Positions 19,118 through 32,537 are shown, numbered from the stretch's first letter. The stretch is 64,000 nt of DNA from Alphaproteobacteria bacterium (GCA_017983635.1 JAGOBA010000003.1:248001-312000), one strand, 5' to 3'. Notes: generated by a model from the letters alone, not told the origin. Numbers and translations: made by a program.

Positions 19118-20251
19118 CTAACCCCCGAGCGCGGTCGCAGGATCAACACGCAGCGCCGCTCTGACGCCGAGGCCGCTCGACACAATGCAAACGGCAAAGA
19201 CGATCGCGCCCAGCACCAACACGTTGTCGGGTTCGAGCACGACGCGGCGCGGGAAGTAATCCTTGATGTTGACAATCAGAATTGCGCCGATAAAAAATCC
19301 AATCAACCCGAGCGCAAGCGCCTGTTGCACGATCATCCCGATAATCGAGCGATCAGGCGCGCCGATCAGCTTGAGCGTCGCGATCTGCTTCAACTTCTCC
19401 ATCGTCATCGTATAGATGATCAACGCGATAATTACCGCCGACACGATCAGCAGCAGAGAGGTGAAAAGGCCGATCTGCCGCCGCGCGCGGTCGACGAGCG
19501 AGAGCGAAAGGATCACCTCCTGCTCGCTCTGCGTGATGGCGGACAGATGCTTCCAGCGCCGGACCGTACGCGCCACATTATCCGCCGCGGCGCCGGGCGC
19601 GATGCGCGCGACGACCGCGTTGATGGTGTCGCGGGTCCCGCCCGCGATGCCGCGCGCAGCTTGCACGCGCGCCGCGGCGGGCGCGAGATCGAATTGCAGC
19701 TTCTGCGCATCCAGCAACGTCATGTAGACTGCCGGATCGCCGCCCGAGTTGACCTGATCGCGCGTCAGGCCGACCACGGTGAACACATTGCGTCCGAGCG
19801 CTATCCGGTCACCCAGCTGAAGCCCCGTCGTGCGATCGGCGACGAGTTCGTAGTGGCTGCGCACGATGCCATGCCCCGCAATCAACGATGGCGGGCCACC
19901 GATACGCTCCGGCTCGTAGCCGATAACGTAGAGCCTGAGCTTGCGCGCCCGATGTTCGGCTTCGACGGTTTGATAGGTCAGGCTACCGGCCGACCTCACG
20001 CCGCTCAGCCTGGCGATGGATTCGCGCGTGTCGCCCGGAATGCGCGATGCTTCCGCGAACGGTCCGCGCGTGCCTGCTTCTACGATCCAAAGGTCGATTG
20101 CAGGGGCGCGCGCGATCGTCAGCGCGTCCACGACGATCCCGCGATAGATGCCGATCATCGCGAGCACGACGCCCAAAAGCAGCCCCAAGCCAACGCACGT
20201 CAGCAGAAAGCGAAACCAATTGTGCCGGACATCGCGGTAAGCGAGATTCAT
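19118..20251 (-). CDS. FtsX-like ABC permease (DevC type)
   Basis: 377 aa. One N-terminal helix (~15-35), a large periplasmic region (~40-265), then three C-terminal helices (~265-375), the standard MacB/DevC topology. The motif ATLKLIGAPDRSIIGMIVQQ is the conserved FtsX cytoplasmic loop. It overlaps the adaptor gene by 4 bp. Together with the ATPase and HlyD adaptor it should form a DevBCA-like exporter; the substrate is unknown. Confidence 0.9.
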   Translation of the reverse strand: MNLAYRDVRHNWFRFLLTCVGLGLLLGVVLAMIGIYRGIVVDALTIARAPAIDLWIVEAGTRGPFAEASRIPGDTRESIARLSGVRSAGSLTYQTVEAEHRARKLRLYVIGYEPERIGGPPSLIAGHGIVRSHYELVADRTTGLQLGDRIALGRNVFTVVGLTRDQVNSGGDPAVYMTLLDAQKLQFDLAPAAARVQAARGIAGGTRDTINAVVARIAPGAAADNVARTVRRWKHLSAITQSEQEVILSLSLVDRARRQIGLFTSLLLIVSAVIIALIIYTMTMEKLKQIATLKLIGAPDRSIIGMIVQQALALGLIGFFIGAILIVNIKDYFPRRVVLEPDNVLVLGAIVFAVCIVSSGLGVRAALRVDPATALGG

Positions 20252-21495
20252 GGCGGCGCCGGCGTCGCCGCATAAGCGGCGCGCCCCTCGCGAAAGCTCG
20301 ACGCCGGCTCGACCGCGACGCTGGCGCCGTTCGGAAGACCCGCGACGATCTCAAGCCGCGCGTCTTCCGTCTTATGGCGGAACCTTGCCGGGCGGCGGCG
20401 TAGGCGGCCTTCCTCGATCGTCCATAACGTCCCGCTGACGCCGTCATAGTCTTCGACGGCAGCCTCGGGCACCAGTAAGGCGCTTGGCAACACCGCGACC
20501 GTTACGAGCAGCTCGGCCTGCTCGCCCAGTTGGAGGGTGGGCGGACAATGATCGCACTTCACGTAGACGCGCCGCTCTTCGTTGACGCGATCGCTTTCGA
20601 TGCCGACCCGGACAACGCGGCCGTGGTACGCTGTTTCGGGCCGCGAGCGCAGCCGCACTTCGGCGGGCTGACCAACCGCGATCCGCCCGGCGCGCGCCTC
20701 ATCCACGTAAGCGAGCGCCCAGACCGACTCGGGATCGGTTAGTGTGAAGATCGCGTCGCCCGCGCGGACGACGGACCCAACTTCCTTTAGGCGCTCAACC
20801 ACGACGCCGTCGAACGGCGCATAGAGCGTGTGGTGGTCGAGGATTGTTTCTTCGTAGGCAAGTTGGGCGCGTGCGGTTTCGACTTGCGTCCGCGCCACGT
20901 CCACATCCCGGGCAGCAACCGACGCTTCAGCAGTCGCCACGTCTTCATCGCGTTGCGCCTCCTCGGCGCCCTGTTGAGAGACGAACCCCTTGGCCGCAAG
21001 CTCCCTCTTCCGCCGATTTGCGGCTTGCCTCTGGGCGAGCACGGCACGGGCCTTGGCCAAATTTGCTTCGGTCTTCGTCGCCGCGACCTCGGCGCTGGAG
21101 TGGTCGGCCTTCGCCTTCATTACTTTGGCGACCTGCTCCGTGGCGTGCAGCCGCGCTAGAACGTCCCCCTTTTTGACCTTGTCGCCATGATCCGCGTTCA
21201 GTTCGACGAGCGCCGCGCTGACTTCGAAACTGATCTTCGAGACGACGCGCGCTTCAACCGTGCCGAGGCCGAACACACGCACCGGCACGTCCCGCTCGAC
21301 CGCAGCAACCCGCACTGAGAGCGGCGCGGCGTTGAACAGGGCGAACCCCACCGCAACAAGCGCAAGCACGCCAACGCCAGCGAACACCCATATCGTCGTT
21401 CGCTTGTTCGTCACGAACTTGGCCCAAGCGCTTGACAGGATCGCGCGCAACCAGCCAAAGCCGCGGACGAGCGGCTGTGTGATGGAAGCCCTCAT
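20248..21495 (-). CDS. HlyD family periplasmic adaptor (DevB type)
   Basis: 415 aa. A transmembrane helix (~33-53) is followed by a lipoyl half-motif (LNADHGDKVKKGDVLARLHA), an Ala/Glu/Lys-rich coiled hairpin (~110-190), the second lipoyl half (LYAPFDGVVVERLKEVGSVV) and the beta-barrel region. First gene of the exporter operon. TTGATCTGTCTCAA at 21529 lies just upstream, though too close for a standard leader. Confidence 0.9.
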   Translation of the reverse strand: MRASITQPLVRGFGWLRAILSSAWAKFVTNKRTTIWVFAGVGVLALVAVGFALFNAAPLSVRVAAVERDVPVRVFGLGTVEARVVSKISFEVSAALVELNADHGDKVKKGDVLARLHATEQVAKVMKAKADHSSAEVAATKTEANLAKARAVLAQRQAANRRKRELAAKGFVSQQGAEEAQRDEDVATAEASVAARDVDVARTQVETARAQLAYEETILDHHTLYAPFDGVVVERLKEVGSVVRAGDAIFTLTDPESVWALAYVDEARAGRIAVGQPAEVRLRSRPETAYHGRVVRVGIESDRVNEERRVYVKCDHCPPTLQLGEQAELLVTVAVLPSALLVPEAAVEDYDGVSGTLWTIEEGRLRRRPARFRHKTEDARLEIVAGLPNGASVAVEPASSFREGRAAYAATPAPP

Positions 21496-21884: not shown

Positions 21885-22604
21885 CTACTTACTGACGAGA
21901 TCCGGCCGTTCACGCATGAGCTTGGTGACGGCTTGGATCCGTGTCGCGACGTTGAGCTTCACCTTGGCGTTGTGGACGTGAAACCGCACTGTGCGCGCCG
22001 ATACCGAAAGAATGCGCGCGACCTCTTGATCGGTCTTACCCCTCGCAACCCAACGCAGGCACTCGACTTCGCGCAAGGTTAGCGCGAACGCGTTGACACC
22101 CGCCGCACCGGATCCGACCTCCTTCGATCTCTGCCAGCCGGCGTGCACAGCGAGCTTCAACGCGTCGCGCGCCAACGGACTCAGGACGGGTCTGAGTCCG
22201 GTCAACGTGGCCATCGCAACCACTTGATGCCCCTCTTGCACGGGCACGATCAAGCCGTTCAGTTCCGGAATCGGCAACGGGTGTTGCGCATCACGCGTTC
22301 GCTTCAAGCCGAACCCCAAGGACATCGATATCTCAAAGGGTTCACGGGTGCCCCGGGCGCGCGTGACCAACGGGTGCGATGAAAAGTCTCCCGCACGGTC
22401 AAGGCGCCGGAGCAGCGCTTGAGGCGCATCGGTGCAGATTACCGCTTCGCGAATGCGCGGCGTTGGCTTTCGAAGGTCGAAGAACGACACCCGGCTCAGT
22501 CCAAAACCGACGGCATATTGCTTGAGCAACGTACAAATCGCCGTGAAGCTTGCAGCCGTCGACAGTCGACCGAGCAACTCGCCCAATTCGATGAACGCAT
22601 CCAC
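21885..22604 (-). CDS. LuxR-family regulator with N-terminal sensor domain
   Basis: 239 aa. The C-terminal LuxR/GerE helix-turn-helix (~172-235) reads LTLREVECLRWVARGKTDQE, then ILSVSARTVRFHVHNAKVKL. The N-terminal ~160 residues have the size and position of an autoinducer-binding (GAF-like) domain, but I cannot confirm the acyl-homoserine-lactone contact residues. No luxI-type synthase is visible in the window, so it may be an orphan (solo) receptor or respond to another ligand. Confidence 0.85.
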   Translation of the reverse strand: MDAFIELGELLGRLSTAASFTAICTLLKQYAVGFGLSRVSFFDLRKPTPRIREAVICTDAPQALLRRLDRAGDFSSHPLVTRARGTREPFEISMSLGFGLKRTRDAQHPLPIPELNGLIVPVQEGHQVVAMATLTGLRPVLSPLARDALKLAVHAGWQRSKEVGSGAAGVNAFALTLREVECLRWVARGKTDQEVARILSVSARTVRFHVHNAKVKLNVATRIQAVTKLMRERPDLVSK

Positions 22605-22951: not shown

Positions 22952-25900
22952 CTATGTTCGCAAGGCTTGCGTGTCGAGGTCGAGGTGCCGCACCTCGGCC
23001 ACGTCGTCTCGAAGTGCGACATAGATCGCCGGTATGACCAGCAGCGTCAGAAGGGTCGACGATGCCAGGCCGAACAGCAGCGAGATCGCCAGACCCTGGA
23101 AGATCGGGTCGGTCAAGATCACCGCCGCGCCGATCATCGCGGCCAGCGCCGTCAGCAGGATCGGCTTGAAACGGATCGCGCCCGCCTCCAGCAGCACGTC
23201 GCGCAAGGCACGTCCGGGCGTGCGACCGTGGCGGATGAAATCGGTCAGCAGAATGGAGTTGCGCACGATAATGCCCGCGAGCGCGATGAACCCGATCATC
23301 GAGGTCGCCGTGAACGGTGCACCGAACAGCGCGTGCCCGATCACGATGCCGATCAACGTCAGCGGGATCGGCGTCAGGATGACAAGCGGCAGCTTGAAGC
23401 TTTTGAACTGCGCCACGACGAGAACGTATATCCCCAAAAGTGCGACCATGAACGCCGCCCCCATATCGCGAAAAGTCACATAGGTAATCTCCCACTCGCC
23501 GTCCCACAGCAGAGAGGGTTTGGACTCGTCCTCCGGCTGTCCGTAAAGGCGTATCGTCGGCTTCGCCAAAGCGCCCCAGTCGTGCGCGTCGACGGCAGCG
23601 CCCACGTCGAGCATCCCGTAGATCGGCGCTTCATAAGTTCCGGCGAGCTCGGCGGTCACCATTTCGGCGAACCGCCCGTCGCGCCGGAACAACGGCAACG
23701 AGCCGGCCTCGCGTTCAGCGTGCATCACTTCGCCCAGTTCGATCGTCTTCGCGCCCTGCGCCGTTCGCAGCACGGCGACCGGCGTGGCCGTCAATTTCGC
23801 ATTCCACGACAGATCGCTGCGGGGCAGACGCACCGAAATCTCAAGCGGGTTGCGCCCCTCGCCGCGATGCGAATAGCCGACCACCGTCCCAGTCAGCAAC
23901 GCGGCAACCGAATCCGAAACGTCTTGCTCCTTGAGCGCGAAAAACTCCAAGGCGTCACGCTTGATCGTCAGACGCAGCCGCGGCCGCGGCACGCCGTAGG
24001 AATCGTCGACATCCACGATATAGGGCACGCTCCTGAACAGCCGCTTCGTTTCCTCGGCGACGGCGCGCCGCGTTGCGGCGTCCGGTCCATAAATCTCGGC
24101 GAGCAGCGTCGCGATCACCGGCGGACCCGGCGGAACCTCGACCACTTTCACGACCGCTCCGGCGGGCAGTTTCAACGCCGCCAGCCGCGTGCGCAGATCG
24201 AGCGCGATGTCGTGGCTGACGCGCGCGCGATCGTCCTTGGGCTTCAAATTCACCTGCAGATCGCCGAGCTCGGGACGCTGGCGGAAATAATAATGGCGCA
24301 CCAGCCCGTTGAAGTTGAACGGCGCCGCCGTGCCGGCATAGGCTTGCACCGACGTCACCTCGGGCAGCGTTTTGACGATCTCGGCTGCTTCCAGCAGCGT
24401 GCGCTCGCTCGCCTCCAGCGTCGCGCCTTCCGGCAAGTCGACCACGACTTGAAGCTCGGACTTGTTGTCGAACGGCAAGAGCTTCACCGTCACCGTCTTC
24501 GTGGCGAATAACAGACAGGCCACCAGCGTGACGACGCCGACCGAAATCAAGAAGATCCACGCGCGTTTGCGTGTCCGGATGACAGGCTCGGCCACGCGGC
24601 GATAAAGCCGCCCCAGCGGGCCTTCGCCGTGCGCCGCTTCGTGCGCGTGCGAGCCCGCTTTCGAGGCGAATTTCGTCATCAGCCACGGTGCCAACACGAC
24701 GGCGACGAAAAACGAGAACAGCATCGCCGCCGACGCGTTGGCCGGGATGGGCGCCATGTAAGGTCCCATGAGCCCGGAGACGAACATCATCGGCAAAAGT
24801 GCGGCCACCACTGTCAGTGTCGCGATGATCGTGGGGTTGCCGACCTCGGCGACGGCCTCCACCGCCGCCTGGACGCGCGGGCGCCCGTCGCGCATCGCCC
24901 AATGGCGCGCCACGTTCTCGATGATGACGATGGCGTCATCGACCAGAATGCCGATCGAGAAAATCAGGGCGAACAGGCTGACGCGGTTGATCGTGTAGCC
25001 CATCAGATTGGCGGCGAACAGCGTCAGCATGATCGTCGTGGGAATGACGACCGCGGTCACCATCGCCTCGCGCCAACCGATGGCGATCGCGATCAGGATG
25101 ACGATCGAAATCGTCGCCAGACCCAGATGAAACAGCAGCTCGTTCGCCTTGTCGTTCGCCGTCAAGCCGTAGTTGCGCGTGATCGTGGCGTCGAGACTAT
25201 TGGGGATCAGCGGCCCCTTCAGCGCCGCGATGCGGTCGACGACGCGCTGCGAAATCGTCACCGCGTTGGCGCCCGACCGCTTGGCGATGGCAAGACTGAT
25301 CGCGGGCACCGTCGTCCATTTCCCGTCGGCACCGCGCGCCAGCGACCAAACGCGCGCATCGTCGCTCCGCGGCGCCTGCACGACGGTGGCGACGTCCTTG
25401 ACGTAGACGGCGCGCCCGTCCGCCGCCGTTACGGTCAGAAGTCCGATTTCCTCCGCCCCCGCCAGCGTGCGCCCAGCTATCGTCGAAACCGCGTTGTCGC
25501 GCTCGCGCAACGTGGTCAGAGGAAACGCTCTATTCGCGTCGCGCACCGCCGAAATCAACGAACCGAGCGGCACGCCGTAAAGCGCCAGCCGACCCGGGTC
25601 GGGCTCGACACGAATCTCCTGCGGCCGGCCGCCGACGAGAAAACTCAAGCCCACGTCCTCGACCTTCGCCAGTTCCGAGCGCAACTCGTCCGCGACGTCG
25701 AACAGCGCCTGGTCTGTCCAACGGTCGGCCGTTTCAGCCTTCGGCGTCAGGGTGACGACCACGATCGGCACGTCGTTGATCCCGCGCGCCACGATCAGGG
25801 GCTCGGGAATGCCGGCCGGGATACGGTCATAGTTGGCACGGATTTTTTCGTGGACGCGCACGATGGCATCGTCCGGATCGACCCCCACCTTGAAACGCGC

Positions 25901-26191
25901 CGTCACCAGAACGCGGTCGTCTTCGGTTTGGCTGTAGATGTGCTCGACCTGATCGATGCTTTTGACGATCGCCTCGAGCGGCTTGCTGATCAGCTCGATC
26001 GCGTCGACCGCCCGCACCCCGTCGGCGCGCACCGAAATGTCGACCAGCGGCACGCTGATTTGCGGCTCCTCCTCGCGCGGGATGGAAATCACCGCCAGAA
26101 GGCCAAGCGCCAGCGCGGCCAAAAGAAACAAAGGCGTAAGCGGCGAGCCGATCGTGGCTCGCGTCAGCCTGCCCGACAGCCCGAGGTTCAC
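22952..26191 (-). CDS. RND efflux transporter, inner-membrane pump
   Basis: 1079 aa, the size of AcrB/CzcA-type pumps. Twelve helices in the usual 1+5+1+5 pattern with two large periplasmic loops. Motifs include VSLFALIFSIGILVDDAIVI (TM4 with the proton-relay Asp pair) and PREEEPQISVPLVDI after the first helix. The latter resembles the branch of hydrophobe/sulfur-compound RND pumps often found without their own outer-membrane channel. It overlaps the adaptor gene by 4 bp and lies in the ArsR/rhodanese operon, hinting at sulfide or metal(loid) control; the substrate is unknown. Confidence 0.93.
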   Translation of the reverse strand: MNLGLSGRLTRATIGSPLTPLFLLAALALGLLAVISIPREEEPQISVPLVDISVRADGVRAVDAIELISKPLEAIVKSIDQVEHIYSQTEDDRVLVTARFKVGVDPDDAIVRVHEKIRANYDRIPAGIPEPLIVARGINDVPIVVVTLTPKAETADRWTDQALFDVADELRSELAKVEDVGLSFLVGGRPQEIRVEPDPGRLALYGVPLGSLISAVRDANRAFPLTTLRERDNAVSTIAGRTLAGAEEIGLLTVTAADGRAVYVKDVATVVQAPRSDDARVWSLARGADGKWTTVPAISLAIAKRSGANAVTISQRVVDRIAALKGPLIPNSLDATITRNYGLTANDKANELLFHLGLATISIVILIAIAIGWREAMVTAVVIPTTIMLTLFAANLMGYTINRVSLFALIFSIGILVDDAIVIIENVARHWAMRDGRPRVQAAVEAVAEVGNPTIIATLTVVAALLPMMFVSGLMGPYMAPIPANASAAMLFSFFVAVVLAPWLMTKFASKAGSHAHEAAHGEGPLGRLYRRVAEPVIRTRKRAWIFLISVGVVTLVACLLFATKTVTVKLLPFDNKSELQVVVDLPEGATLEASERTLLEAAEIVKTLPEVTSVQAYAGTAAPFNFNGLVRHYYFRQRPELGDLQVNLKPKDDRARVSHDIALDLRTRLAALKLPAGAVVKVVEVPPGPPVIATLLAEIYGPDAATRRAVAEETKRLFRSVPYIVDVDDSYGVPRPRLRLTIKRDALEFFALKEQDVSDSVAALLTGTVVGYSHRGEGRNPLEISVRLPRSDLSWNAKLTATPVAVLRTAQGAKTIELGEVMHAEREAGSLPLFRRDGRFAEMVTAELAGTYEAPIYGMLDVGAAVDAHDWGALAKPTIRLYGQPEDESKPSLLWDGEWEITYVTFRDMGAAFMVALLGIYVLVVAQFKSFKLPLVILTPIPLTLIGIVIGHALFGAPFTATSMIGFIALAGIIVRNSILLTDFIRHGRTPGRALRDVLLEAGAIRFKPILLTALAAMIGAAVILTDPIFQGLAISLLFGLASSTLLTLLVIPAIYVALRDDVAEVRHLDLDTQALRT

Positions 26192-27213
26192 AGCGTCACC
26201 AGTTTTCCGTCCGGCCGGATAATCGTATCGCCCGGCTTGAGACCAGACAATATCTCGATCCCGTCCGGCACGCCCTCCACGTCGATGTGCTGTCCGCGTT
26301 GCACCGGAATGTCGAGCGCGCCGCCTTTGCCGGCCAGACTCACATAGTCGACGCCGAAACGCGTGGTGACGAAGTCTTGCGGTACGACGATGGCGCGCCG
26401 TTCGCCGGCCGCGATCAAGACGCGCACGCGCTCGCCCACAAAGCCCGAGCCGAGACCCGCGGCTTCAAGATCGGCGGTCACTCGCCCATTGCGTATTTCG
26501 GGATAAATCTCTCTCACGCGCGCCGCCACGTCGCGCCCATCGACCGCGCCGCCCTCGCCGACGAGACGCACCGCATCGCCCTTTTTCAGGCCCCGCGCCT
26601 CGCGCTCCGGAACTTCGATGCGCACGACAGCGTCGTTCGTGGCGACCACCGCGATCACGTCGCCCGCCATCACCACGGCGCCCGCAGGCACCGAGGCGCG
26701 CACCACCCTGCCCGCCGCCGGCGCCAGAACCTTGCCTTGTCCCACTTGCTCGCTGACGACCGCTTGCGACGCGACCGCTGCCTTCCAAGCCGACTCGGCC
26801 GACTTCGCCGCCGCGACCGCTTGGTCGAGCCGCGCCTTCGAATAGAATCCCTTGTCGAAAACGGTTTTCACCCGCGCCAAATCCGCTTCCGCCCGATCGC
26901 GCTCGGCTTTCAGCGCGCCGGCCTGCGCTTGGCGCGCCTGAACTTCCAGCGCGTTTTTCTGATCGGCGATGACGGCGAGCGTCTGTCCCTTCGTCACCGT
27001 ATCGCCTTCGCGCACCCGAAGCTCCGTCAGCGTGCCGGCGATGCGCGCGCGCGCCTCGCCCATGTCGCGCGTTGTCAGCGTCGCGGCCACCATTTTGTAG
27101 TCCGGCACCGTGCGTTCCTGAACCGCGTGCGTTTCCGCGGCGCGGCCGGCCGACGTCAGCGCCAGCACCGCGATGAACGCGGCGGCCGCTGCCTTGACCG
27201 AAAGCTTTCTCAT
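26188..27213 (-). CDS. RND periplasmic adaptor (membrane fusion protein)
   Basis: 341 aa. Signal peptide (AFIAVLALTSAGRAAE), lipoyl half-motifs (LRVREGDTVTKGQTLAVIAD and VLAPAAGRVVRASVPAGAVV) around a coiled hairpin, then barrel domains. The ATG at 27213 follows GGAGGCGGTAAC, a strong ribosome site; the frame is open much further upstream but overlaps the rhodanese gene there. It pairs with the pump downstream. Confidence 0.92.
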   Translation of the reverse strand: MRKLSVKAAAAAFIAVLALTSAGRAAETHAVQERTVPDYKMVAATLTTRDMGEARARIAGTLTELRVREGDTVTKGQTLAVIADQKNALEVQARQAQAGALKAERDRAEADLARVKTVFDKGFYSKARLDQAVAAAKSAESAWKAAVASQAVVSEQVGQGKVLAPAAGRVVRASVPAGAVVMAGDVIAVVATNDAVVRIEVPEREARGLKKGDAVRLVGEGGAVDGRDVAARVREIYPEIRNGRVTADLEAAGLGSGFVGERVRVLIAAGERRAIVVPQDFVTTRFGVDYVSLAGKGGALDIPVQRGQHIDVEGVPDGIEILSGLKPGDTIIRPDGKLVTL

Positions 27214-27248
27214 GTTACCGCCTCCACGTTGCGGCCGGCCGGGCCGGC

Positions 27249-27602
27249 TCAGCGTCTGTCCTGCACTTGTCCGGTTCCGGGATCGATCGCCACCGTTGCG
27301 AAACCGGCCTGTTTCCACGCCGCAATACCGCCCGACAAATGCGCGTTGTGCGCCAAGCCTGCAGCCGCGCACTGCGCCACGGCCGTGGCGGAGCGTTTGC
27401 CCGAACCGCACTGAAACACGATCTTGCGCTTGTGCGCCTCGGGAAGAGCGTACGCATCGAACGTCGACAGCGGAAACAGCAGCGCGCCGTGGATGCGCTC
27501 GGCCGCGAACTCCTGCGGTTCGCGAACGTCGATCAGCACGATCGTCCGGTCCGCCAGTCCCTTCCTCACCTCTTCCGCTTCCCAATGATGAATCTTGCTC
27601 AT
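27249..27602 (-). CDS. Rhodanese-domain sulfurtransferase
   Basis: 117 aa single-domain rhodanese. Conserved VLIDVREPQEFAAERIHGAL and the active-site loop VFQCGSGKRSATA with the catalytic Cys that carries the persulfide; ends with GGIAAWKQAG. The ATG at 27602 overlaps the ArsR stop (4 bp), so it is the second gene of the regulator's operon. Likely moves sulfane sulfur produced by the divergent sulfide:quinone oxidoreductase. Confidence 0.9.
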   Translation of the reverse strand: MSKIHHWEAEEVRKGLADRTIVLIDVREPQEFAAERIHGALLFPLSTFDAYALPEAHKRKIVFQCGSGKRSATAVAQCAAAGLAHNAHLSGGIAAWKQAGFATVAIDPGTGQVQDRR

Positions 27603-27979
27603 CCGCGCACCTTTCTTGCAGAACTTTGCTTTGCAGATTCGCCGCGCCCCGAACGCCCGACGCCTTCGCACAGCGTCGCCGGCGAACAGAAATGTCTGTA
27701 AAGCGCGTCGACCACCGAACGGGCGACTGGACTGCCGATCGAATAGAAGATCGTTTGCCCCTCGCGGCGCGTGCGCACGATCCCGTCCTTGCGCAACAGC
27801 GCCAAATGCTGCGACGCCGTCGAATCGCGAATGCCCAGCGCCTGCGCCAAGTCGCCGACCGGCCGCTCGCCGTCGATCAGCTGACACACCAGCATCAGCC
27901 GGTGTCGGTTGGCGAGCGCCTTGAGGAATTCGCTGGCGTCGTCCGCCGCGGCTTCCATGTGTTTCGCATTGATAGTCAT
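27599..27979 (-). CDS. ArsR-family repressor, BigR/SqrR-type persulfide sensor
   Basis: 126 aa winged-helix protein (FLKALANRHRLMLVCQL, then DSTASQHLALLRKDGIV). Cysteines at positions 32 and 98 are 66 residues apart, the same spacing as the redox pair of BigR (C42/C108) and SqrR (C41/C107), which form a sulfur bridge on sensing persulfide. An extra Cys lies at 104. I chose the ATG at 27979 over a longer frame because it gives the normal family N-terminus and sits just behind an inverted-repeat operator. Confidence 0.9.
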   Translation of the reverse strand: MTINAKHMEAAADDASEFLKALANRHRLMLVCQLIDGERPVGDLAQALGIRDSTASQHLALLRKDGIVRTRREGQTIFYSIGSPVARSVVDALYRHFCSPATLCEGVGRSGRGESAKQSSARKVRG

Positions 27980-27985
27980 ACTTTC

Positions 27986-28009
27986 ATATCTACGCACATT
28001 CGCATATAT
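27986..28009. promoter_or_regulatory. Putative ArsR (BigR-like) operator
   Basis: Imperfect AT-rich inverted repeat, half-sites ATATCTACG and CGCATATAT separated by 6 bases, 7 bp upstream of the arsR ATG. BigR-family operators are similar AT-rich palindromes at the regulator's own promoter. It also lies in the promoter region of the divergent SQR operon. Confidence 0.6.
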
Positions 28010-28076
28010 TGTCAATGCCGCCGCTCGCAGAAGCCCGCGTTTGCACGGTAAATGAGCGAAATTTGCGTGTCGCGCC

Positions 28077-28090
28077 CTGACCCACGTCAA
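28077..28090. promoter_or_regulatory. Crp/Fnr-type site before the SQR operon
   Basis: CTGACCCACGTCAA is one base off the TTGAC-N4-GTCAA palindrome. At -41.5 it predicts a start near 28125 and a 26-nt leader containing GAAGGAGA before the ATG at 28151, a good fit. Inferred. Confidence 0.5.
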
Positions 28091-28150
28091 GTTCGCCCCT
28101 CGAAATCAAGGGCAGAATTCGGGTCTGCACCCGCCGCGAAGGAGAACACC

Positions 28151-29422
28151 ATGGCCAGTATCGTCGTTCTGGGAGCCGGCCTCGGCGGCACGCTGATGGC
28201 CTATGAATTGAAAACCCAGCTGCGCGAGGGCGACAAGCTCACCGTCGTCGGCCAAGGACAGACCTATCATTTCGTGCCCTCGAACCCATGGGTGGCGGTC
28301 GATTGGCGCAAACGCGAATCCATCGAGGTCGATCTGGCGCCGATCTTCACGAAGAAGGGCATCGACTTCGTAACCTGCGGCGCAAAGAAAGTCGTTCCCG
28401 CCGAAAACCGCATCGAACTGGAGAACGGAACGTCGCTCCCTTACGATTACCTCGTCGTCGCCACGGGTCCCGATCTCGCCTTCGACGAAATCGAAGGCCT
28501 TGGACCCAACGGGCACACGCAATCGATCTGCCATGTCGATCACGCGGAGAAAGCGCAACAGGCGTTCGCCGCCTTCGTCAAGACTCCGGGACCGATCGTC
28601 GTCGGCGCCGTGCAAGGCGCGTCGTGTTACGGCCCTGCCTATGAGTTCGCTTTCATCCTCGACACCGAACTGCGCCGCCGCAGACTCCGCGACCGTGTGC
28701 CGATGACCTTCGTCACCCCCGAACCCTACATCGGCCATCTGGGTCTTGACGGTGTCGGCGACACGAAATCGATGCTCGAAAGCGAACTGCGCGATCGCCA
28801 TATCAAATGGATCGTGAATGCCCGCGTGACGAAGGTCGAAGCCGGCAAGATGTTCGTCGAAGAGGTCAACGACGACGCGACCACGAAGGCCGCGCACGAG
28901 CTTCCCTTCTCTTATTCCATGTTGCTTCCGGCGTTCCGGGGCGTACCAGCGGTGCGCGGCATTGAGGGTTTGACCAATCCGCGCGGCTTCATTCTGGCCG
29001 ACAAGACGCAACGTAATCCGAAATTCCCGAACGTCTTCTCGATCGGCGTGTGCGTCGCAATTCCGCCGGTCGGCAAGACGCCGCTGCCCGTCGGCGTGCC
29101 GAAGACCGGCTTCATGATCGAATCCATGGTCACGGCGACGGCGCTCAACATCGGCGCGCTGCTGCGCGGTCAACCCGCGACGCGCGAGCCGACCTGGAAC
29201 GCGGTCTGCCTCGCAGATTTCGGCGACGGCGGCGTCGCCTTCGTCGCTCAACCGCAGATTCCGCCGCGCAACGTCAACTGGTCGGCGCGCGGCAAGTGGG
29301 TACATTACGCCAAGATCGGCTTCGAAAAATTCTTCCTGCACAAACTGCGCAGCGGCGTCAGCGAACCCTTCTACGAAAAATTCGTCATGGATGCGTTGGG
29401 CATCCACAAACTAAGAGCGTGA
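28151..29422 (+). CDS. sqr: Sulfide:quinone oxidoreductase
   Basis: Flavoprotein that oxidises sulfide to sulfane sulfur and reduces the quinone pool at the inner membrane. 423 aa from an ATG behind GAAGGAGA. GAGLGGT is the FAD-binding loop. Cysteines C127, C159 (GASCYGPAYEF) and C353 (NAVCLADFGDG) fall almost exactly where the three catalytic cysteines of Acidithiobacillus SQR lie (128/160/356). Ends with an amphipathic FEKFFLHKLRSG region suited to membrane contact. First gene of SQR-trxC-DUF2892. Confidence 0.92.
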   Translation: MASIVVLGAGLGGTLMAYELKTQLREGDKLTVVGQGQTYHFVPSNPWVAVDWRKRESIEVDLAPIFTKKGIDFVTCGAKKVVPAENRIELENGTSLPYDYLVVATGPDLAFDEIEGLGPNGHTQSICHVDHAEKAQQAFAAFVKTPGPIVVGAVQGASCYGPAYEFAFILDTELRRRRLRDRVPMTFVTPEPYIGHLGLDGVGDTKSMLESELRDRHIKWIVNARVTKVEAGKMFVEEVNDDATTKAAHELPFSYSMLLPAFRGVPAVRGIEGLTNPRGFILADKTQRNPKFPNVFSIGVCVAIPPVGKTPLPVGVPKTGFMIESMVTATALNIGALLRGQPATREPTWNAVCLADFGDGGVAFVAQPQIPPRNVNWSARGKWVHYAKIGFEKFFLHKLRSGVSEPFYEKFVMDALGIHKLRA

Positions 29423-29432
29423 GACGATCCGA

Positions 29433-29903
29433 ATGACGACGGCAAAGCAACACATCGTGTGCACGGCCTGCGGCGCGATCAACGCCGCCGCGCCCGAACG
29501 CGACGCGGCGGCGGCCAAATGCGGCGTCTGCGCCGCGCGGCTGTTCGCCGGCAAACCCGCCGACGTCGACACCGCCGGGTTCGAGCGTCACACCAAGCGC
29601 GACGACATCCCTGTCCTCGTCGACGTTTGGGCGCCGTGGTGCGGACCTTGCCGCACGATGGCGCCGATGTTCCAGGCGGCGGCCCGCGAACTCGAACCGC
29701 AAGTCCGCCTCCTCAAGCTCAACGCCGACACCGCGCCCGAAATCAGCCGACGCTTCGGCATTCGCGGCATCCCCGCTCTGCTGCTTCTGCATCGCGGCCG
29801 CCTCATCGCGCAATCGGCGGGCGCGATGGACACGCACCGCATCGTCGCATGGACTCGCGCGGCGCTTTCTTCAACCCAGGAGACCGCACATGACAATCGA
29901 TAA
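29433..29903 (+). CDS. trxC: Thioredoxin 2 (zinc-binding)
   Basis: 156 aa. The N-terminal zinc ribbon has two CxxC pairs (CTACG and CGVC, residues ~10-35). The thioredoxin fold follows with active site WAPWCGPCRTMAP and the cis-Pro loop GIRGIPALLL. Ten bases after the SQR stop. In this context it may reduce persulfides or the SQR-generated polysulfide; TrxC is also a general oxidative-stress reductant. Confidence 0.93.
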   Translation: MTTAKQHIVCTACGAINAAAPERDAAAAKCGVCAARLFAGKPADVDTAGFERHTKRDDIPVLVDVWAPWCGPCRTMAPMFQAAARELEPQVRLLKLNADTAPEISRRFGIRGIPALLLLHRGRLIAQSAGAMDTHRIVAWTRAALSSTQETAHDNR

Positions 29904-30093
29904 AGCCGTACTCGTGTTCGCAGGATTCATGGTCCTGTTGTCGCTCGTCCTCACCTATTACGTGAGCCCCTGGTGGGTGCTGCTGACGATCTTCGTCGGC
30001 GTGAACCTGATCCAATCCGCCTTCACCGGCCTTTGCCCGGCGGCGATGGTGTTCAAACAACTCGGCCTGAAACCCGGCGGTTTGTTCCGCTAA
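29890..30093 (+). CDS. DUF2892 (YgaP-type) membrane protein
   Basis: 67 aa, two transmembrane helices with the family signature SPWWVLLTIFVGVNLIQSAF then TGLCPAAMVFKQLG. In other bacteria this domain is fused to rhodanese (YgaP) or encoded in BigR operons, which agrees with its place here. Starts inside the end of trxC (14-bp overlap). Confidence 0.9.
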   Translation: MTIDKAVLVFAGFMVLLSLVLTYYVSPWWVLLTIFVGVNLIQSAFTGLCPAAMVFKQLGLKPGGLFR

Positions 30094-30111: not shown

Positions 30112-30900
30112 GTGTGCGAGCTCTTCGCGCTCAGCGCCAACGCGACGGTCGACGTCAAGCTGTCGCTCGGCGCGCTGGCGCGTCACGGCGGCGGCACCGG
30201 CCCGCATCGCGACGGCTGGGGCGTGGCCTTCGGTGACGGCAAAGACTTCCGCCTCTTCAAAGAGGCGGGCCCCGCCTGGAACAGCCCGCTGATCGAATGT
30301 CTGGCTGCCCATCCTGTGCGCAGCCGCACCGTCCTCGCCCACATCCGCCACGCCACGCGCGGCCCCGTCGCCGCCGAAAACACGCAGCCCTTCGTGCGCG
30401 AGCTCGGAGGCATGCTGCGCGTCTTCGCGCATAACGGCAATCTGGGCGCCGCCGACCCGGCTGACGCCAGCCGCGTGCCGCGCTTCATGCCGGTCGGCGA
30501 GACCGATTCGGAAGCGGCGTTTTGCTCGCTTCTGAACGAGGCCACCGGCGAACCGGCGAAACCGTTGCCGTTCGAACTCTTCGCCCGCTTCGCAAAACGC
30601 GCCCGCGACAAGGGCCCGGCGAATTTCATCTACGCCGAACCGGGCCGACTGCTGGTGCACGCCGACCGCCGCACGCAGGCGAGCGGCGCGATCGAGCCGC
30701 CCGGCCTGTGGATGCTGGGCCGCAGCTGCATGGCAGAGCCGCCGCCAGCCTCGCCCGTTACGGTCGGCGCCACGGCCGATACCGTCGTCGCGCTGTTCGC
30801 CAGCGTGCCCCTGACCGGCGAAGCCTGGGTGCCCATCGAACGCGGAACGATCATCGAGGCCGCGAACGGCCACGTCGCGCGAACCGAACGCGCGACGTGA
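30112..30900 (+). CDS. Class II glutamine amidotransferase (YafJ-like)
   Basis: 262 aa from a GTG start, so Cys2 becomes the N-terminal nucleophile (M-C-E-L-F-A-L-S). Family motifs GPHRDGWGVAF, LAHIRHATRG and FAHNGNLG are intact. Such stand-alone N-terminal nucleophile glutaminases have no firmly known substrate. A frameshifted copy of the same gene lies at 21635, so the function may have been duplicated or replaced here. Confidence 0.88.
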   Translation: MCELFALSANATVDVKLSLGALARHGGGTGPHRDGWGVAFGDGKDFRLFKEAGPAWNSPLIECLAAHPVRSRTVLAHIRHATRGPVAAENTQPFVRELGGMLRVFAHNGNLGAADPADASRVPRFMPVGETDSEAAFCSLLNEATGEPAKPLPFELFARFAKRARDKGPANFIYAEPGRLLVHADRRTQASGAIEPPGLWMLGRSCMAEPPPASPVTVGATADTVVALFASVPLTGEAWVPIERGTIIEAANGHVARTERAT

Positions 30901-32150: not shown

Positions 32151-32537
32151 TCAGATCAATCGCTTCCAAGTGGCCGGGGACGTGGAATACCCGACGCGGT
32201 TCGCGCGCTCGGCGTCTTCCTCCGCGAGCCGCGCGCTGTCCGGCAACAGGATGCGGCAGAGGTCCGCCGTGGCCTCACTGCAAAGGATGCGGCCGTGGAA
32301 GCCCTTCTTGATCAGGAGCGGCAGGTAGCCCGAATGGTCGATGTGGGCATGGGTCAGCACGACGGCGGAGATCGTCTTGGGATCGAAGGACGGCTGCGCC
32401 CAGTTGCGCTGCCGCAGCGGCTTGAACCCCTGAAACAAGCCGCAATCGACGAGCAATTGCGCATTGCCGGCGCGCACGAGGTACTTCGAACCGGTGACGG
32501 TGCCCGCCGCGCCGTGGAACTCGAGATCCATGGTCAT
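32151..32537 (-). pseudogene. Truncated MBL-fold RNA hydrolase/exonuclease
   Basis: 128 aa. Begins like the ~450-residue CPSF/YSH1-type metallo-beta-lactamase proteins (FHGAAGTVTGSKYLV, LLVDCGLFQG) and has the first metal motif THAHIDHSGYLP. Similarity ends near residue 115, after EEDAERANR, and a stop follows 12 codons later. The beta-CASP domain and remaining metal ligands are absent, so it cannot be an active nuclease. Full-length homologs often sit beside Usp and phosphoribosyltransferase genes. Confidence 0.75.

Follow-up and report, generated by a model that had tools for sequence, protein, structure and literature searches.

The window analysed here, 64,000 nucleotides of contig C21 from the 4.59 Mb genome of an Alphaproteobacteria bacterium, carries two divergent groups of genes, as seen in Table 1. 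On the minus strand, the ArsR gene stands at the head of the order ArsR-rhodanese-RND adaptor-RND permease. The ArsR and rhodanese genes overlap by 4 nt, as do the adaptor and permease genes, and the rhodanese and adaptor genes are 35 nt apart. Because of these overlaps and this short gap, the four genes are likely to form one operon. On the plus strand, the sulfide:quinone oxidoreductase (SQR), TrxC and DUF2892 genes are closely spaced. The initial annotation had placed the system at 26188-30093 and had described a rhodanese in the repressor operon, an extension of that operon into an RND adaptor and pump, and a divergent SQR-TrxC-DUF2892 operon. All of these genes were recovered, and the SQR is of type I. 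The interval itself cut off most of the permease gene, which runs on to 22952. A gene for an outer-membrane channel was not identified within the cluster.

Table 1. Genes and predicted regulatory features of the divergent locus (positions counted from the first nucleotide of the window)
Feature	Position	Strand	Basis
RND permease, 1079 aa, AcrB-like (HAE-type), GTG start	22952-26191	minus	PF00873 (ACR_tran), 448 bits
RND periplasmic adaptor, 341 aa, without cysteine	26188-27213	minus	TIGR01730, 124.8 bits, above cut-off
Single-domain rhodanese, 117 aa, active-site loop C65-GSGKR	27249-27602	minus	Pfam PF00581, E 3.1e-15
ArsR-family repressor, 126 aa	27599-27979	minus	Pfam HTH_5 and NCBIfam NF033788, above cut-off
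AT-rich imperfect palindrome resembling an operator (minus strand: TATATGCGAATGTGCGTAGATA)	27987-28008		Motif from relatives
Likely sigma-70 promoter of the ArsR operon: TTGACA, 17 nt, TAGATA (weak -10)	27987-28015	minus	Read from sequence
FNR/FixK-like box ahead of SQR (minus strand: TTGACGTGGGTCAG)	28080-28093	plus	Pattern match
Type I SQR, 423 aa, C127/C159/C353	28151-29422	plus	3sz0 match
TrxC (thioredoxin 2), WCGPC active site, N-terminal zinc-ribbon cysteines	29433-29903	plus	NF008229, 126.3 bits (cut-off 125)
DUF2892/YgaP-like transmembrane protein, 67 aa	29890-30093	plus	PF11127, 45 bits

Several neighbouring genes were also recorded. A class II glutamine amidotransferase gene (GATase_4, 30112-30900) begins 18 nt past DUF2892 in the same orientation, and the two may share a transcript; at this place, the same-genus locus L148 has persulfide dioxygenase (PDO) and TrxC genes downstream of DUF2892. 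Two further genes in the orientation of the pump operon encode a LuxR-type regulator (21885-22604), which has an autoinducer-binding-like domain, and, downstream of it, a second RND-type adaptor (20248-21495). The short ORF at 32151-32537 (128 aa), judged by eye, resembles the start of a beta-CASP metallo-beta-lactamase nuclease and ends early; it is perhaps a truncated gene.

The ArsR protein scored above the cut-offs of both PF01022 (43.5 bits; cut-off 22) and NF033788 (85.4 bits; cut-off 55), and its top PDB matches were HlyU, SqrR and BigR. In an ungapped alignment of residues 3-99 with SqrR of Rhodobacter capsulatus and a V. cholerae-type HlyU, C32 and C98, which are 66 residues apart, fall on the cysteines of both proteins. 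Identity to SqrR is 45 of 97 positions. This alignment confirmed the cysteine pair and spacing given in the initial annotation, and it supports the BigR/SqrR type proposed there in the form of a SqrR/BigR/SoxR-type two-cysteine ArsR. The BigR equivalog model NF040642 gave 93 bits, under its curated cut-off of 155, and the protein is therefore better described as a relative of BigR than as BigR itself. By its domain and its cysteines, it is assigned to the two-cysteine sulfane-sulfur subfamily (SqrR/SoxR/BigR/YgaV/HlyU). The equivalent cysteine pair has been shown to mediate responses to sulfane sulfur or sulfide in SoxR of Hyphomicrobium denitrificans (PMC10451225), SqrR of R. capsulatus (PMC9995734) and YgaV of E. 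coli (PMC9774250). Related clusters hold 63 ArsR genes that lie 5' of the pump and share its strand, and 62 of these keep the exact spacing C-x65-C, a count in which a few clusters share one genome. Among the ArsR-like ORFs recovered from the genome studied here, just two have it: the ArsR of the window and one adjoining a PDO gene. Some clusters (L153, L030, L031 and similar) are without a C-x65-C ArsR, and several of these, such as L031, have an ArsR lacking this spacing 3' of the permease. This suggests that the regulator has been replaced in clusters like L031.

Upstream regions of related ArsR genes, 72 in all and without the window, were used to train a motif by expectation-maximisation, which gave TATATTCGnAnnTnCGAATATA; its palindromic form was imposed, and some of the training sites overlap the start codon. 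The top site of this motif in the whole window is the repeat at 27987-28008, with 22.6-22.9 bits, and the next unrelated site scored 7.7 bits. The repeat overlies the spacer and the -10 element of the likely ArsR promoter. When up to two mismatches were allowed, a pattern matching this site had a single occurrence in the genome, and the reversed control had none. Uniqueness is the informative part of this search, since the pattern was written to fit the site in the window. Within the promoter, TTGACAATATAT is kept in two same-genus loci. The consensus promoter scan omitted this promoter because its -10 element matches poorly. The AT-rich inverted repeat that the initial annotation had seen at the ArsR promoter is thus more than chance, with the highest score in the window under a motif trained solely on relatives and no second match in the genome, and we consider it a conserved operator-like site.

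The SQR matches the Acidithiobacillus ferrooxidans SQR 3sz0 over its full length (residues 2-422, E 1.9e-141), and all three of its catalytic cysteines are present and aligned. On these matches, it is assigned as a genuine type I enzyme; no further SQR was found in the genome. A motif scan of the window did not find a second operator-like site near SQR, and the single site is about 140 bp from the SQR start. It is plausible that this predicted operator also represses the divergent SQR operon. Since the sole operator-like site is on the ArsR promoter, however, control of both operons by one repressor is less certain than had been implied. The FNR/FixK-like box lies about 58 bp ahead of the SQR start. 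Similar boxes were found in the same-genus loci L148 and L149 as well as in L032, L037 and L069, so that six of 47 intergenic regions carry one, compared with about one expected and a maximum of four in 200 random placements. Because the box recurs above expectation, the SQR operon may be under oxygen control of its own, with a low-oxygen response besides or in place of ArsR. Control of the two operons could even be separate, with ArsR answering to sulfane sulfur for the rhodanese-pump operon and an FNR/FixK-type regulator answering to low oxygen for SQR-TrxC-DUF2892. The position of the sole operator-like site and the recurrence of the box agree with such a division. The pattern used did not detect the box in the other 41 intergenic regions, though, and many relatives have so short a gap that one operator could span both promoters. 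Overall, we regard fully separate control as possible but do not favor it.

The initial annotation also reported that a PDO is absent. This stands for the 64 kb window, where none was found; the regulator's locus therefore lacks the PDO or Blh gene of a BigR-type operon. It is wrong for the genome. The search for an ETHE1-type dioxygenase that the annotation had proposed found a PDO on contig C31 that is 53% identical to a Paracoccus PDO, and the idea of a missing PDO was rejected at the genome level. On C31, the PDO gene (114363-115223) is divergent from a second two-cysteine ArsR gene (from about 115300; both in locus L150), which is followed by a TauE-type exporter. A related TTAG..CTAA AT-rich repeat lies upstream of this second ArsR gene and scored 17.3 bits with the same motif. 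In the same-genus L148 cluster, TauE, permease, adaptor and ArsR genes lie on one side and SQR, DUF2892, PDO and TrxC genes on the other. Since L148 joins PDO and TauE with a pump-SQR cluster, the window locus and the C31 locus are best seen as the probable two halves of one response.

The conservation of the arrangement was assessed with the 80 best relatives of the permease, taken at one genome per species, of which 67 had enough upstream sequence. Near the pump, DUF2892 was found in 66 of these 67 relatives, ArsR in 65 (a C-x65-C ArsR in 44), SQR in 56, TrxC in 30, a recognisable rhodanese in 28 and PDO in 12. The order was sampled with 60 genomes, 17 with SQR and 23 with the pump. Every one of the 17 SQR genomes carries the pump too, and in 14 of them the two lie side by side on one contig; the hypergeometric P for the co-occurrence is 2.6e-10, a value that treats the genomes as independent although they share ancestry. 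Genomes that have the pump and lack SQR retain ArsR, DUF2892 and mostly rhodanese, so the pump goes more closely with the regulator and DUF2892 than with SQR. The genome encodes six other RND pumps, and no such sulfur-cluster neighbour was seen beside any of them. Beyond the Alphaproteobacteria, pumps at 38-47% identity adjoin SQR, rhodaneses, DUF2892 and C-x65-C ArsR in L194, L206 and L207, and L205 and L210 have such neighbours in part. Pump homologues at 43-45% identity in other classes are mostly without sulfur neighbours, so the sulfur link is a property of a subset of the wider pump family. Within its bacterial group, the cluster appears from these neighbourhoods to be a common arrangement and not a rarity. 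The initial annotation had called the link to the pump unusual; this was rejected, as the association is standard in the relatives examined and the link between such regulators and RND pumps is in print (PMC12423496). The sphingomonad conjugative plasmids pIBU218 and pISP1 (L017 and L169) carry the pump-SQR cluster with TolC and cytochrome bd genes, and pIBU218 has catalases too. From its gene content, this plasmid-borne cluster is read as a mobile sulfide/oxidative-stress island.

The class of the pump was examined through its sequence and a predicted structure. D418-D419 in TM4 and R977 of the permease are invariant across 16 aligned relatives. An AlphaFold model made from 16 sequences (mean pLDDT 69.9, which serves for class and not for reading the substrate pocket) had AcrB, CmeB, BpeF and OqxB as its best structural matches. 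The permease did not reach the cut-offs of the curated multidrug models RND_permease_1 and RND_permease_2, which sets it apart as a subfamily of its own. The nearest solved relatives of the adaptor are a TriA-type fusion and MexJ, and neither pump nor adaptor has a conserved cysteine. The model and these scores identify the permease as an HAE-type, AcrB-like RND pump of a distinct, conserved subfamily.

Taken together, the locus most probably encodes a sulfane-sulfur-responsive module for detoxification and efflux that is derepressed through ArsR. This reading is built on the gene content, the cysteine pair, the conserved operator-like site, the conserved association and the class of the pump, all of which were observed here, and the chemistry of sensing is carried over from characterised relatives. 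At rest, an ArsR dimer would sit on 27987-28008 and block its own promoter. Sulfide would be converted, largely by the neighbouring SQR, to persulfide or polysulfide, with electrons passing from sulfide to quinone and sulfane sulfur being produced. Sulfane sulfur would then bridge C32 and C98, the repressor would release the DNA and the ArsR-rhodanese-adaptor-permease operon would be expressed. Rhodanese and TrxC would move or reduce sulfane sulfur, and the PDO and the sulfite exporter TauE, encoded elsewhere in the genome under the second two-cysteine ArsR, would complete the oxidation. The RND pump would take up a harmful product in the periplasm or membrane and expel it by way of an outer-membrane channel whose gene lies elsewhere.

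As for that product, the initial annotation had put forward a sulfur species or a toxic compound that sulfide induces, which is kept here as a conjecture. Export of persulfide or polysulfide is possible, and our tentative first choice of cargo is what SQR would make, small organic persulfides or polysulfide. The second choice, nearly as likely as the first but still less likely than not, is a general multidrug, toxicant or xenobiotic exporter that would have come to be controlled by sulfide within a wider stress response, with sulfur compounds as its signal and not its cargo. The AcrB-like (HAE) fold and the multidrug pumps that are the nearest solved relatives of the permease, the resemblance of the adaptor to TriA-type proteins and MexJ, the lack of a conserved cysteine suggestive of thiol handling, and the company of TolC, catalases and cytochrome bd on the sphingomonad plasmids all fit such an exporter. 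However, multidrug pumps are usually paired with TetR, MarR or LysR regulators, unlike the ArsR found here, and the neighbourhood is specifically sulfur-related and kept across orders. A further proposal sees in the pump an RND exporter dedicated to reactive sulfur, either organic persulfide or polysulfide, and the representative of a subfamily with sulfane-sulfur cargo across Alphaproteobacteria and some other Pseudomonadota; this seems doubtful at present. A metal-responsive ArsR with a metal-efflux (HME) RND pump, with the sulfur genes as bystanders or binding metal sulfides, is very improbable: the ArsR/SmtB family has many metal sensors and export of metal sulfides was proposed for an SQR-RND operon of Azospira (PMC5358917), but the cysteine pair aligns with reactive-sulfur sensors, the CusA/CzcA model TIGR00914 gave 251.8 bits against a cut-off of 701.45, and the permease model resembles pumps of the AcrB type, while its 50 best structural matches listed include no CusA-type pump.

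If the pump does export reactive sulfur, sulfide would be detoxified by efflux as well as by SQR-PDO oxidation, and a large RND subfamily that is so far uncharacterised would gain a physiological role. If other toxicants are exported instead, efflux would have sulfide as a natural inducer, with a bearing on sulfide-linked drug tolerance. Both ideas are directly testable through the conserved operator and the cysteine pair.

Among known systems, the association of regulator, RND pump and SQR is already known in outline from two sources. SoxR and sHdrR of H. denitrificans and their relatives belong to the same regulator subfamily as the ArsR of the window. In the survey of Li et al. 2025, the neighbourhoods of two-cysteine ArsR genes include RND pumps, SQR, PDO, rhodanese and TauE, and the relevant passage gives the RND pumps no function (PMC12423496). 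The operon Dsui_3440-3443 of Azospira suillum PS is alike in gene content, with SQR, an RND pump and an adaptor in one operon. According to the passages on this operon, it was highly expressed during H2S oxidation and was flagged in barcoded-transposon fitness data, deletion of the whole operon left the rate of H2S oxidation unchanged, and the authors proposed export of metal sulfides (PMC5358917). The unchanged rate suggests that the importance of the pump may be small or bound to certain conditions. Unlike the organism studied here, A. suillum is a Betaproteobacterium, and ArsR and rhodanese are unmentioned in those passages (PMC5358917). The SqrR system of R. capsulatus shares the two-cysteine ArsR, an AT-rich operator and regulation of SQR and a rhodanese gene, but in the window the regulator's operon continues into an RND pump, and the text on SqrR mentions none (PMC9995734). 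BigR operons of Xylella and Acinetobacter likewise place a two-cysteine ArsR over sulfide detoxification. PDO/Blh and small membrane proteins are part of those operons, whereas here PDO and TauE are at the second locus, and the BigR equivalog cut-off was missed. In E. coli, ygaVP is sulfide-responsive and combines an ArsR with a rhodanese and a DUF2892/YgaP-type transmembrane domain (PMC9774250). Both YgaP domains occur here as separate genes, and to these the window adds SQR, TrxC and the RND pump.
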